DNA of 64,000 bases from Coprococcus eutactus (GTDB taxonomy: Bacteria; Bacillota; Clostridia; Lachnospirales; Lachnospiraceae). Below the pieces are notes generated by a model. The model searched no databases, was not told the DNA's origin, and saw only the letters and a program-made list of their open reading frames with translations. The translations under genes were made by a program, and so were the position numbers. Shown here one piece after another: positions 25,213-47,152 of the stretch. Location of the stretch: the NCBI RefSeq assembly GCF_025149915.1, contig NZ_CP102278.1, positions 620,001 through 684,000 of the forward strand, read 5' to 3'. The stretch's first letter is position 1; every line of letters begins with the position of its first letter.

Positions 25213-26280
25213 ATGAGAAAGTTTAATTATAAGAATTTAGCTGAAAAATGCTGGGATAATGATATACTGCTTTTATGCTCAAGAATTCATGAGAGTAAGG
25301 GAAGGCAGGAGCTTTTTGTACGCCAGAAACCTGCACAACTTGAACGTTTGGTTGAAATATCCAAAATCCAAAGTACTGAGGCTTCCAATAGGATTGAAGG
25401 AATTGTCACAACAAGTACACGAATTAAGAAGTTGTTTGAGGAAAAGACAACTCCAAAGAACAGGGATGAAAAAGAGATTCTTGGTTATAGAGATGTGCTT
25501 AATACGATTCATGAAAGCCATGATTATATTGATGTAAGTCCAAATCACATTTTGCAGCTACATAGGGATTTGCTAAAGCATGCAGGAATAACTTATGGTG
25601 GCAGTTTTAAGAGTGTACAAAATTATATAAAGGAAACAAAGCCAGATGGGACGGAAGTGATAAGATTTATGCCGCTTGCACCATACGAGACGCCTGAGGC
25701 AATAGGACTGATATGTAAAAGTTACTGTGAAACCATTGCCTTAGAGATAGTGGATCCGCTTATTTTAATTCCGGCATTTATTTGTGACTTTCTGTGTATT
25801 CACCCATTTAATGATGGCAATGGAAGAATGAGTAGATTACTCACGTTACTTTTACTATATAAGAGCGGATATGAAGTTGGAAAATATATTAGTATTGAGA
25901 GACAAATAGAGAAGACTAAGGATGTTTATTATGATGTACTCCAGGAAATAGATCGTGGATGGCATGAAGAAATGAATGATCCGACACCGTTTATCAAGTA
26001 TATGCTCCAGATGGTTCTTGCCTGTTATAAGGAATTTGAAGAGCGTGTAGGTATTATGGATGATGTGGGAGTAAAGAGTTCCACATATGATATAGTTAAG
26101 TCTTATGTTGATAATAAGCTTGGCAAGTTCACTGCTGCTGACGTGCTTGCAAATTGTCCTAGTGTTGGACGTACTTCTGTGTTTAATGCTCTTAAAAAAT
26201 TAACTAGTGAGGGGTATGTTGAAAAACATGGGGAGAGACAAAAAGCTTTTTATGTAAAGAAAATGACCGGCCAATGGTAG
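25213..26280 (+). CDS. Fic family protein (AMPylase) with C-terminal winged helix
   Basis: A 355-residue Fic protein. The N-terminal helix carries the class II inhibitory motif S58-N-R-I-E62-G (consensus S/TxxxEG). The Fic core has HPFNDGNGRMSRLL with catalytic H197, matching HPFxxGNGR. The C-terminal 75 residues look like a winged helix (ADVLANCPSVGRTSVFNALKKL). Such proteins transfer AMP to a protein hydroxyl and are kept in check by the inhibitory glutamate. The ATG at 25213 follows AAGGAG. The codon use is more A/T-rich than that of its neighbours, it is a single-gene unit after a terminator, and its promoter carries operator repeats it may bind itself. Possibly acquired; target unknown. 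Confidence 0.9.
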   Translation: MRKFNYKNLAEKCWDNDILLLCSRIHESKGRQELFVRQKPAQLERLVEISKIQSTEASNRIEGIVTTSTRIKKLFEEKTTPKNRDEKEILGYRDVLNTIHESHDYIDVSPNHILQLHRDLLKHAGITYGGSFKSVQNYIKETKPDGTEVIRFMPLAPYETPEAIGLICKSYCETIALEIVDPLILIPAFICDFLCIHPFNDGNGRMSRLLTLLLLYKSGYEVGKYISIERQIEKTKDVYYDVLQEIDRGWHEEMNDPTPFIKYMLQMVLACYKEFEERVGIMDDVGVKSSTYDIVKSYVDNKLGKFTAADVLANCPSVGRTSVFNALKKLTSEGYVEKHGERQKAFYVKKMTGQW

Positions 26281-27837: not shown

Positions 27838-28710
27838 GGCAGAGGATCTGATAGTTGGCATGCAGACATGGGCGAATACCTTGCCTGTAAAGTGGCTATG
27901 TTCAGGCAGTGTGATACGGTAATAATCAACAGGGATACCAACATGTATGACCGTGTGCGGGAGTCAGTTCCGGAAGGCGTGAAGGTGATTCTGTTTGGAC
28001 AGAAACAGTATGATCATGACCCGGCAGATGCCGTGATAGGAAATGTGCAGATGGGAATGTCTGGACTTACATTTGAGCTTTCCTACAGAGGAAGAACTGA
28101 TACTATACATACAAACCTGGTTGGAAAATTTAACGCTGAGAATATAACGGCTGCAGCACTGGCTGCTCTTGAGCTGGGGGTGGATATTGATACAGTTAAG
28201 AGTTCGGTTAAGGAGCTTTTTATCCCAGGACGATTGAATTTTGTTGAGGCGAATGGAAGACACGTTATCATAGATTATGCGCACAATCATATGAGCTATA
28301 GCAGTCTTTTCCGGACCATCAGAAGTATATATCCAACTGACAGACTTACGGCATTGGTTGGTGCTATGGGAGACAAGGCATTTGGCAGAAGGCGGGAGGC
28401 TGGGCAGATGACAAATGTATATGCAGACCGGGTGGTGATAACAGAGCAGGATTCAGGCAGTGAGCATCCGGCGAAGATTGGCAGTGAGATAGCCAGATAT
28501 GTGCATAAACTATGTAAGATAGTGCCAAGACGTGAGGCTGCGATCAGGTATATACTTGATAAGTCTGATCCTGGAGATGTGATCGTTCTCACAGGAAAGG
28601 GAGCTGAGAAAACACTGCGTGTTGGAAGAAATTCCGTGAGACCGTATGCCGGCGATCTGGAGATAGTGAAAGCGTGGCTTCGTACAGATATGACAATAGA
28701 TGCAAAATAA
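27838..28710 (+). pseudogene. Mur ligase (MurE-like) remnant lacking its ATP-binding N-terminal half
   Basis: The frame from 27838 (first ATG 27868) encodes the middle and C-terminal parts of a MurE-type ligase. HADMGEYLACKVAMF matches the segment with the carbamylated lysine; then come IPGRLNFVEANGRHVIIDYA, GAMGDKAFGRRREAG, and VLTGKGAEKTLR near the end. The N-terminal substrate domain and the GTNGKT P-loop (about 200 residues) are absent; an in-frame TAA at 27835-27837 lies directly upstream. A short unrelated frame from the ATG at 27800 runs into it out of register. Without the P-loop it cannot be a ligase. The C-terminal part is intact over about 280 codons, so the loss may be recent or the fragment may be kept for another use. 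Confidence 0.75.
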
Positions 28711-30033: not shown

Positions 30034-32820
30034 ATGAAGAACATAGTCGCGGGCATACTGGCCCACGTTGATTCAGGCAAGACCACACTCTCCGAGGCGA
30101 TGCTATACCAGACTGGACGTATCAGAAAGCTTGGACGTGTGGATCATCAGGATACATACCTTGACACGGACAGTCAGGAAAAGGACAGAGGAATAACCAT
30201 ATTTTCAAAGCAGGCGGAGCTTACCTATGAGGACATGCATATAGCTTTGCTTGACACTCCGGGGCATGTGGATTTCGGCACGGAGATGGAGAGGACACTG
30301 CAGGTTCTTGATTATGCGGTTCTGGTCATCAATGGCATGGACGGAGTGCAGAGCCACACGGAGACACTGTGGAAACTGCTTGAGAGATATGAGATTCCTG
30401 TATTTATATTTGTAAATAAGATGGACATGACGGGGTATGACAGGGAGTATCTCATGGACAATATCAGACACAGACTGAGTGATGGCTGTGTCGATTTTTT
30501 ATGTGAAGATGCTGGTGAACACATAGCCATGTGCGATGAGAATATGCTAGAGAGATTCCTCGAGACCGGGGAAAACCGGGAAGATGACATAGCTAAGGCT
30601 GTGGCAGACAGAAAGCTGTTTCCTTGTTATTTTGGTTCGGCACTTAAAAATGATGGTGTGGCTGAGCTGCTGGATGGAATGAACAGATATGTGACGGAGC
30701 CTCGGCGAACGGATGAATTTGGAGCCAGGGTATTTAAAATCGGCCGTGATGACAAAGGAGAGAGGCTGACCTATATGAAGATCACAGGGGGAACCCTGAG
30801 ACTAAAGGATGTACTCACGCTTACAGGCAGACAAGGCGAGGAAACACTTGAAAAGGTAAATCAGATAAGGGTATACTCCGGTGCAAAGTATGACATGGTG
30901 GATCATGTCACTGCGGGCTGTGTATGTGCTGTTCCGGGACTGGTGAATACCTACGGCAGACAGGGAATCGGTGCCTGCCCGGATGGAGAGCTTCCAAGTC
31001 TGGAGCCGGTTCTCAGCTATAAGGTTATGTACCCGACTGATGTGGATGCGGTCACGATGGTGTCAAAGCTCAGACAGCTTGAGGAAGAGGATCCATTGCT
31101 GCAGGTGCAGTGGAATGAGGCAGCCGGTGAGATATACATCAAGGTCATGGGACAGGTGCAGCTGGAGGTTGTGGCGCAGATGGTCAGAGACAGATTTGGC
31201 ATAGCCATCACGTACGGTCAGGGCAGGATAACATACAAAGAGACGATCGCAGCTCCGGTCATGGGAGTGGGACATTTTGAACCGCTCAGACACTATGCTG
31301 AAGTACATTTGCTGCTTGAACCTATGGAAAATGGCAGCGGTATGTGCTTTGACAGCATTTGCAGCGAGGATGTGCTGGACAAGAACTGGCAGAGATTGAT
31401 CCTGACTCATCTACAGGAAAGGGAATTCAGAGGGGTGCTGACGGGATCCCCGATCACGGATATGAAGATAACTATCACCGCAGGCAGGGCACATCAGAAA
31501 CACACTGAGGGCGGAGATTTCAGGCAGGCGACATACAGGGCTGTGAGACAGGGACTTATGATGGCGGAAAGTGTCTTGCTTGAACCTGTGTATGCATTTA
31601 AAATAGAGGTGCCGCAGGAGTATGCGGGCAGAGTGCTTGCTGACATAGTGAAGATGAGCGGCAGCATGGACGGACAGGAGATCGCAGGCGAGACAACGGT
31701 TATCACTGGACATGCTCCGGTATACACTATGAGAGAGTATTACAGTGAGCTCACGGCATTTTCTAGAGGTACAGGCAGGCTTCAGGTGGATATAGACGGC
31801 TATCAGCCATGCCACAACACCGAAGAGGTTCTGGCTGAGAGACATTATGATCCTGAGCTTGACAGGTTTAATCCATCATCATCGGTATTCTGTGCCCACG
31901 GTGCAGGTTATCTGGTCGACTGGTACGATGTGTATGAGAACATGCATGTGAAGGAGGATCCGGGATTTGAGATCTCAGGTCAGCTGGGGTATACAGAGGA
32001 TGGCGATGTTACGGATATTCCTGTGAACAGGCCGGGAAAGAGCGTGTCGGATATGTCCATCACGGACGAGGAACTCAGCGAGATATTTGCAAGGACATTT
32101 GGCGGAGATTACAAGGATAAGGATGTGGCACTGAACGGAAGATTCAGGAGAACTACATCTGAGTATAAGGTAAATGGAACTTCCAGCAGAGGAAGTGACG
32201 GCACAGCCGGAGGCGGCGCGTCTGCTGGTACGGCAGGAGATTCTTCAAATTCGGGATATCGTGGAAATGGACAGTATAATAAGAGTCAGTCCAGAGACAG
32301 ACAGCCCGGGAATGGGCCTGTCGTGGGCAGCAGGCCAGCCGACAGAGGGATAGCAACACCTGGAGCATTCAAGCGCAGAAAGAGTGGCGAGGACTATGTC
32401 ATAGTGGATGGTTATAACGTCATATTTGCGTGGGATACACTTCGGGAACTGTCGGAGCACAATATAGACTCCGCGAGAGGTAAGCTCATGGATATCCTGT
32501 CGAACTATCAGGGATATATGAACTGTCATCTGATAGTGGTATTTGACGGCTACAAGGTGAAGGATAATAAGGGGGAGAGATTCCCATATGACGATATAGA
32601 GGTAGTGTACACAAAAGAGGGCGAGACCGCCGATGCGCACATAGAAAAGCTCACACATGAGCTTGCGAGAAAGCATAAGGTCACTGTGGTCACATCGGAC
32701 GGACTGGAGCAGATAGTCACCATGGGACAGGGTGCGATCCGCATGTCTTCAAGAGACTTCAAACTAGAGGTCGAGAGAGTGAACGAACATTTGAGAGAGA
32801 ATTATCTGAAAAACGATTGA
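30034..32820 (+). CDS. TetM/EF-G-like translational GTPase fused to a YacP/Rae1-type NYN ribonuclease
   Basis: A 928-residue two-part protein. Residues 1 to about 690 are a translational GTPase closest to tetracycline ribosomal-protection proteins: G1 AHVDSGKTT, G2 DRGITIF, G3 DTPGHVDFG, G4 NKMD, G5 SAL, then domains II-V (GYQPCHNTEEVLAERHYDPE near the end). Residues about 700-785 are a Gly/Ser/Arg-rich linker. Residues about 786-928 are a NYN/PIN-like nuclease of the YacP (Rae1) family: VIVDGYNVIFAWD with D792 and N795, VVFDGYKVKDN, TADAHIEKL and VVTSDGLEQ. Rae1 of Bacillus cleaves mRNA in the ribosomal A site, where such GTPases also bind. The frame is continuous with no internal stop. Ribosome site GAAGGGAAAAG. 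Antibiotic resistance is not implied. Confidence 0.9.
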   Translation: MKNIVAGILAHVDSGKTTLSEAMLYQTGRIRKLGRVDHQDTYLDTDSQEKDRGITIFSKQAELTYEDMHIALLDTPGHVDFGTEMERTLQVLDYAVLVINGMDGVQSHTETLWKLLERYEIPVFIFVNKMDMTGYDREYLMDNIRHRLSDGCVDFLCEDAGEHIAMCDENMLERFLETGENREDDIAKAVADRKLFPCYFGSALKNDGVAELLDGMNRYVTEPRRTDEFGARVFKIGRDDKGERLTYMKITGGTLRLKDVLTLTGRQGEETLEKVNQIRVYSGAKYDMVDHVTAGCVCAVPGLVNTYGRQGIGACPDGELPSLEPVLSYKVMYPTDVDAVTMVSKLRQLEEEDPLLQVQWNEAAGEIYIKVMGQVQLEVVAQMVRDRFGIAITYGQGRITYKETIAAPVMGVGHFEPLRHYAEVHLLLEPMENGSGMCFDSICSEDVLDKNWQRLILTHLQEREFRGVLTGSPITDMKITITAGRAHQKHTEGGDFRQATYRAVRQGLMMAESVLLEPVYAFKIEVPQEYAGRVLADIVKMSGSMDGQEIAGETTVITGHAPVYTMREYYSELTAFSRGTGRLQVDIDGYQPCHNTEEVLAERHYDPELDRFNPSSSVFCAHGAGYLVDWYDVYENMHVKEDPGFEISGQLGYTEDGDVTDIPVNRPGKSVSDMSITDEELSEIFARTFGGDYKDKDVALNGRFRRTTSEYKVNGTSSRGSDGTAGGGASAGTAGDSSNSGYRGNGQYNKSQSRDRQPGNGPVVGSRPADRGIATPGAFKRRKSGEDYVIVDGYNVIFAWDTLRELSEHNIDSARGKLMDILSNYQGYMNCHLIVVFDGYKVKDNKGERFPYDDIEVVYTKEGETADAHIEKLTHELARKHKVTVVTSDGLEQIVTMGQGAIRMSSRDFKLEVERVNEHLRENYLKND

Positions 32821-47059: not shown

Positions 47060-47152
47060 TCTACAGTACAAACTGAGCAGACCATTGGCGAAAGCCAAGG
47101 AGTCGGGCCATCATGGCAGTGGAATCTTTACATCCACGGGACAGTAGTTACT
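47060..47152 (+). ncRNA. NiCo (czcD) riboswitch aptamer
   Basis: Conserved junction segments of the Ni2+/Co2+-binding NiCo riboswitch occur in order with the right spacing: ACTGAGCAG (47072-47080), a GGCGAAAGCC hairpin, GTCGGGC (about 47102), GGCAGTGG, a stem with an A/T-rich loop, and GGGACAGT (47138-47145). ACTG pairs with CAGT to close P1. The gene after it is a cation diffusion facilitator, the standard target. The metal should stabilise the aptamer and block the terminator at 47131. Confidence 0.88.

Follow-up and report, generated by a model that had tools for sequence, protein, structure and literature searches.

A translational GTPase fused to a Rae1/YacP nuclease replaces standalone yacP in most Lachnospiraceae genera

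EF-G and TetM both place their domain IV in the aminoacyl (A) site of the ribosome. The nuclease Rae1, also called YacP, has been reported to act on messenger RNA (mRNA) in the ribosomal A site (PMC12320835, PMC6613710; papers cited here by PMC number are represented by excerpts). The joining of such proteins is also on record: Atkinson 2015 noted that tetracycline-resistance (Tet) proteins of ten clostridial species had acquired a YacP-like NYN RNase domain and proposed a resistance mechanism, with no experiment in the excerpted text (PMC4342817). Here we analyze a gene of that architecture, at positions 30034 to 32820 of the forward strand in a 64,000-nucleotide stretch of the Coprococcus eutactus genome (the window; positions 620,001 to 684,000 of contig NZ_CP102278.1, assembly GCF_025149915.1). 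From ATG to stop it encodes 928 amino acids, with a translational GTPase in the N-terminal part and a YacP/Rae1 nuclease in the C-terminal part. We suggest that this lineage's own Rae1/YacP, moved from its place behind rlmB, has been fused by a long flexible linker to an EF-G-like GTPase to give one housekeeping, ribosome-directed factor, and in our judgment the evidence tips slightly in favor of this reading.

The fusion itself is already in print and is not new. A first-pass annotation of this DNA, made from the sequence alone, knew of no characterized example; that statement gives way to Atkinson 2015 as regards the existence of the fusion and stands as regards experiment, as far as the excerpts of that paper go. 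Among the matches listed in openly licensed literature, it was the only paper on the fusion. The extent of the fusion, the exclusion and relocation of yacP, the shortening of the nuclease tail and the separation of the GTPase from Tet proteins were not found in that literature; Condon 2018, on the distribution of Rae1, lies outside this scope and may already describe the fusion. What we regard as new is the wide spread of the gene in the family and the exclusion of standalone yacP.

Two domains in one chromosomal gene

The uninterrupted 928-codon frame joining a GTPase to a YacP-family NYN domain, as the first-pass annotation had described it, is confirmed by the open frame and by Pfam. The protein matches GTP_EFTU (residues 5-220, E 7.6e-53), EFG_III (324-395), EFG_IV (397-511), EFG_C (514-595) and NYN_YacP (PF05991, residues 789-926, E 2.4e-47), the last with 161.5 bits against a gathering cut-off of 24.6; EF-G domain 2 gives a sub-threshold match (25.4 bits against 27). 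A fold search with the predicted model finds a translational GTPase fold of the EF-G type, as in ribosome-bound factors, within residues 1-618. All five G motifs that had been claimed are present, and across 53 aligned copies G1 (10-17, except residue 14), G3 (74-78) and G4 (128-131) are invariant or nearly so, as is most of G2 and G5. We move the end of the GTPase part from residue 690, as first proposed, to about 640, so as to include a conserved extension (596-640) that is found in fused and unfused members of the subfamily and is missing from the Tet protein of the same genome. The tip of domain IV reads GRAHxKHTEGGDFR (GRAHQKHTEGGDFR), and a GxxHxKHTxGGDFR tip prevails in the fused family and in its unfused sister group, with Pediococcus deviating. 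Of its two histidines, H490 is kept in 75 of 75 fused copies and H487 in 74 of 75, and the first aligns with a histidine at the EF-G tip.

The same GTPase and nuclease architecture occurs in 74 of the 79 relatives that were fetched (one of these, L075, is cut at a contig end), and the other five are without the nuclease. Together with the fact that the C. eutactus genome is a single contig, in which the fused gene is the sole NYN_YacP match, this rules out an assembly chimera.

Since a fold search with the full model returned GTPases only, among the matches listed, the nuclease part was folded separately. It matched B. subtilis Rae1 (PDB 5mq8 and 5mq9) by sequence (E 6e-25) and by fold (E 7e-11, TM 0.81-0.84), and these two entries were its only PDB fold matches with E under 0.001. 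D792, N795, D838, D867 and D889 correspond in the 5mq8 alignment to D7, N10, D53, D81 and D104 of Rae1, among which we take D7 and D81 to be the catalytic residues. All 93 fused and all 20 standalone copies examined keep the first four; D889 is kept by 92 of the 93 and by all 20. The 93 fused copies comprise the named loci with the highest similarity to the query and 19 from genome surveys, a sample weighted towards close relatives as a result. The first-pass annotation had placed D792/N795, ETAD (864-867) and TSDGLEQ (887-893) where we find them, and it had held that a non-nuclease fold or the loss of the NYN acidic residues in homologs would overturn its reading; instead, the predicted C-terminal part folds like Rae1, and D792, D838 and D867 are retained throughout. 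Judged by these residues, the fused nuclease looks active.

Replacement of standalone yacP

We surveyed a family set of 120 genomes, one per genus, and a class set of 147 genomes, counting as fused also those copies inferred from pieces split at contig ends or frame breaks. The Lachnospiraceae survey of fused against separate yacP, which the first-pass annotation had proposed, gives 108 genomes with NYN_YacP, 101 fused and 7 standalone, and 12 with neither. In the class set the fused form is found in 54 genomes, always with the GTPase match, the standalone form in 46 and neither in 47, and no genome has both above the Pfam cut-off, where 16.9 of the 147 would be expected to have both if the two were independent (Fisher p 5e-12, kinship ignored). 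In the phylum, at least 219 of 398 genomes have NYN_YacP, fused and standalone taken together. We conclude that the fused gene is a family-wide chromosomal gene replacing yacP.

The gene that has been replaced had a fixed address. Of 20 fetched loci with standalone yacP, 16 have the gene immediately after rlmB, the order being cysS, an RNase III-domain gene (mrnC-like), sometimes thyX, rlmB (a SpoU ribosomal RNA [rRNA] methylase gene) and yacP, with a sigma-factor gene in 15 of the 20; Pfam searches with one or two examples per family confirmed these assignments, and TIGR00186 that of rlmB. Among the remaining four loci, two probably escaped the simple gene caller, a contig end truncates the third, and only the fourth, in genome G445, is truly elsewhere. 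By comparison, 23 of 25 family genomes have no NYN domain within about 1.5 kb beside rlmB. In 16 of these 23 loci, including that of C. eutactus itself (where 9 kb were read), rlmB runs straight into the sigma gene, and the other seven, two of which are truncated at contig ends, showed no sigma gene. Twenty-two of the 23 genomes carry the fused gene (our genome and 21 relatives), and the last, G400, is without any NYN domain; in the two family genomes where yacP is still behind rlmB, it is of the standalone type. Because yacP is gone from behind rlmB and no genome of the class set has both forms above the cut-off, we read the fused nuclease as the cell's own Rae1, which moved onto the GTPase: it was moved, not added. 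The empty place behind rlmB hence shows a relocated cellular function and not an acquired extra.

On a GTPase tree of 86 rows, built by a quick method, the fused GTPases form one group with a support of 98 in the Shimodaira-Hasegawa-like approximate likelihood ratio test (SH-aLRT), sister to 13 unfused GTPases, and long branches to the Tet outgroup mark the GTPase as a subfamily of its own. Nested within the fused group are three rows without the nuclease, two from Treponema and one from Pediococcus (L070, L073 and L076; two further nuclease-less relatives, L080 from Treponema and L077 from Pediococcus, are not on the tree). One fused group with such rows nested in it is read as a single fusion followed by two later losses after transfer, the Treponema and Pediococcus copies having probably been transferred and then trimmed; the same rows indicate that the GTPase can do without the nuclease. 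What distinguishes the lineage is that nuclease and GTPase were joined and have stayed joined in most genera. The unfused sister GTPases (for example L089-L100 and L103) are chromosomal and TetM-like and carry a KHTxGGDFR tip, and some of their genomes are without YacP.

An origin of the family's standalone YacPs by splitting from the fusion is not shown: they score like fused NYN domains, yet six of the seven are directly behind rlmB, G445 being the only one away from it. The nuclease alignment offers too few columns for its tree to fix the backbone, and a single group of all standalone copies was not rejected on that tree (approximately unbiased test, p 0.49).

Proposed working and alternatives

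Each half of the protein belongs to a family whose members bind in the ribosomal A site. We tentatively propose a GTP-gated A-site ribonuclease, in which a GTPase subfamily separate from antibiotic protection would open the A site and deliver its own Rae1, serving Lachnospiraceae and their relatives, instead of free Rae1, as a general device for translation-coupled mRNA cutting; in this specific form the proposal is possible but falls short of an even chance. The docking on stalled ribosomes, the order of events and the A-site cleavage are what we infer. With GTP bound, the GTPase part would dock on a paused ribosome at its factor-binding site, driving domain IV into the A site; after GTP hydrolysis domain IV would withdraw, the tethered NYN domain would enter the vacated A site and cut the mRNA codon there, and the truncated complex would be left for transfer-messenger RNA, which is present. 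With domain IV in the A site there should be no room for the nuclease, so the two probably act in turn. With a nuclease joined to an A-site type of GTPase, a single protein makes it possible to test how Rae1 locates the right ribosome and what clears the A site for its entry.

Two further features of the protein bear on this proposal. Residues from about 643 to 784 are disordered in the predicted model, except for a short helix (678-689). The spacing between residues 638 and 792 ranges from 71 to 153 residues (median 85, n=75 copies), a tether that would be long enough for a sequence of docking, withdrawal and cutting, and a helical motif of the type ELxxIFxxTY, found by a loose pattern in 63 of 75 copies, is a candidate docking element. 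The second feature is the tail of the nuclease. Past a conserved serine near the C terminus, every one of the 20 standalone copies has at least 48 residues (median 49). In the fused copies this stretch is 11-53 residues long, with a median of 26 and with 72 of 93 copies below 40, and in our own copy it measures 23. By Pfam, 46 of 46 standalone copies in the class set are matched as far as profile position 159 or further, against 19 of 53 fused ones. The profile match of our copy stops at 145 of 166; the tail is an accessory feature and does not enter the Pfam threshold. In B. subtilis Rae1 a change in this tail, R166P, behaves as a loss of function (PMC6613710, as excerpted), and one Rae1 crystal structure is of a W164L variant. 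Loss of the tail would fit a GTPase that has taken over part of Rae1's contact with the ribosome.

A number of observations weigh against the fused protein being a single coordinated, ribosome-directed factor. The NYN domain and domain IV would be rivals for one A site. The full model has a predicted template modeling score of 0.54, with predicted local distance difference test (pLDDT) values under 50 in the linker, and does not fix where the nuclease lies with respect to the GTPase. The argument from the tail holds only in part: 40 or more tail residues remain in 21 of 93 fused copies, and in the family set the Pfam match extends to position 159 or further in 53 of the 101 fused copies, so that tail shortening is frequent without being the rule. 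Conserved gene neighbors were not found, the best cluster (an ABC-type ATPase by eye) covering 11 of 75 loci, many of them contig-cut. As for the exclusion of yacP, G427 has a contig-edge NYN fragment besides its fused copy, and G625 a second NYN match below the cut-off. The two partners also occur apart: 42 of the 46 class genomes with standalone YacP lack any member of the GTPase subfamily, and four genomes (G539, G541, G564, G577) have the unfused GTPase but no YacP. That the unfused GTPase and standalone YacP travel together was considered and rejected, for the family set suggests it (5 of 7 against 0 of 12, p 0.0018, kinship ignored), but class-wide there is no association (4 of 46 against 4 of 47, p 1.0).

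The alternative that survives best is that the GTPase is a mere anchor, which raises the local concentration of Rae1 on ribosomes while GTP hydrolysis and domain IV movement stay outside the cutting cycle. The long, disordered linker would suit an anchor, B. subtilis Rae1 has its own gene next to yacO (PMC6613710, as excerpted), and in Treponema and Pediococcus the GTPase is retained although the nuclease is missing, so that it can have a job of its own. Yet the family-wide conservation of every G motif and of the domain IV tip would be superfluous in a simple anchor, and a Rae1 tail so often shortened points to something specific having passed to the GTPase, though maybe only anchoring. We consider this alternative unlikely, with a share of probability that still has to be respected.

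It is less probable, and indeed doubtful, that the targets of the fused factor are idle, hibernating or post-termination ribosomes, for recycling or for the clearance of leftover mRNA, and not stalled elongating ones. Mitochondrial EF-G2 is a recycling factor, which fits the names of entries 7nsh and 7l20, and these entries are among the close structural matches of our protein. Against such a role, B. subtilis Rae1 needs translation to destabilize mRNAs (PMC10100781, as excerpted). A little more doubtful again is a nuclease for processing rRNA or transfer RNA that the GTPase brings to ribosomes or precursors. Anantharaman and Aravind 2006 first guessed NYN domains to be RNA processors of this sort (via the excerpts of Atkinson 2015, PMC4342817), and the ancestral neighbors of yacP, an RNase III-domain gene and a SpoU rRNA methylase gene, are in keeping with it; the nuclease part is nevertheless Rae1 by sequence and fold, and the action reported for Rae1, in the excerpts cited above, is on A-site mRNA.

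The features of the gene are collected in Table 1. No leader RNA was found at the fused gene: the only Rfam match in the window is a NiCo (nickel/cobalt) riboswitch far away at 47063-47146 (+; 65.9 bits against a gathering score of 37). A scan for promoters and terminators stayed at chance level. Elsewhere in the window, a Mur-ligase-like frame of 280 amino acids at 27868-28710 (+) starts partway through the Mur ligase central domain (matching profile positions 99-200) without the N-terminal part and is perhaps, to judge by this match, a truncated or frame-broken gene, and a Fic/DOC family protein of 355 amino acids is encoded at 25213-26280 (+).

Table 1. Parts of the fused gene, in window coordinates
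Feature	Position	Strand	Basis
Whole fused gene, GTPase and YacP/Rae1 NYN nuclease, 928 aa	30034..32820	+	Open frame, Pfam
GTPase (G) domain, residues 1-220; AHVDSGKT, RGIT, DTPGH, NKMD, SALK	30034..30693	+	GTP_EFTU E 7.6e-53, 53-copy alignment
EF-G-type domains II-V, residues 229-595	30718..31818	+	
Domain IV tip loop GRAHQKHTEGGDFR, residues 484-497	31483..31524	+	Common to fused copies and unfused sister GTPases; unlike the Tet protein of the same genome
Extension past domain V (SVFCAHGAG, W, H), residues 596-640	31819..31953	+	Conserved in the subfamily
Disordered linker, residues 643-784	31960..32385	+	pLDDT mostly under 50
Short linker helix, residues 678-689, motif ELSEIFARTF (680-689)	32065..32100	+	Predicted helix; pattern in 63/75 copies
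NYN_YacP/Rae1 nuclease domain, residues 787-928; D792, N795, D838, D867, D889	32392..32817	+	Pfam, PDB sequence and fold matches

Tetracycline protection and other known systems

Public annotation leans towards resistance where it names the protein at all, most of the 120 rows listed for relatives bearing no name. Relatives that are 91% identical carry tetracycline-resistance labels in one NCBI and one JGI name; the NCBI name is 'TetM/TetW/TetO/TetS family tetracycline resistance ribosomal protection protein', and the other names are 'ribosomal protection tetracycline resistance protein' and, from another source, 'translation elongation factor G [Coprococcus sp.]'. The curated models, with two proteins of the same genome as internal controls, tell otherwise. 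The fused protein scores 422.3 bits on the general Tet model tet_protect (NF012153; cut-off 775) and 297.5 bits on the M/W/O/S model NF033148 (cut-off 1100), and it falls below the cut-offs of all five Tet models listed. The control L082 (C1:3034149-3035984, -) passes both models, with 853 and 1311 bits, and is by this measure a genuine TetM/W/O/S-type tetracycline protection gene, separate from the fused gene; its domain IV tip reads YSPVSTPADFR, and this TetM-type loop is not that of the fused protein. On the EF-G equivalog model TIGR00484 the fused protein reaches 317.9 bits against a cut-off of 659.4, while the second control, L083, which is the genome's separate EF-G, passes with 990.5 bits over the matched 607 residues. 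The first-pass term 'TetM-like' can be kept for a ribosome-type translational GTPase, as Pfam and the fold search have it, and should be dropped where it implies ribosomal protection.

A tetracycline-resistance protein with an added RNase, as suggested in the excerpts of Atkinson 2015 (PMC4342817) and in the public names, can appeal to tet_protect being the best NCBIfam match by E-value, but we reject it as very improbable on the failed cut-offs, the tip loop, the identity of only 28.5% to L082, the presence of that real Tet gene, and a distribution over 101 of 120 family genomes that is unlike that of an acquired resistance gene. The fused protein looks like an ordinary, long-kept translation factor. 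If this is true, many gut bacteria have a chromosomal translation factor that is being counted in part as tetracycline resistance, which could inflate resistome surveys.

Set beside the systems described so far, the fused protein differs from each in a definable way. TetM, TetO and TetW, represented by L082, have another domain IV tip and are without the C-terminal extension and the nuclease. EF-G and EF-G2 are set apart by the equivalog cut-off, under which the fused protein falls, and by the separate EF-G in the same genome. The clostridial proteins of Atkinson 2015 have, as far as the excerpts describe them, the identical architecture and very probably form one family with the present gene; there the fusion was grouped as Tet, whereas here it is a widespread chromosomal gene that fails the Tet cut-offs and replaces yacP. 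With B. subtilis Rae1 (5mq8, 5mq9) the nuclease shares its fold, 38% identity and, by alignment, its active-site residues. Standalone Rae1/YacP is in most genomes a frame of about 170-200 amino acids, and it lies behind rlmB in 16 of the 20 loci checked; here it has gone from that operon, carries a short C-terminal tail and is part of a GTPase.

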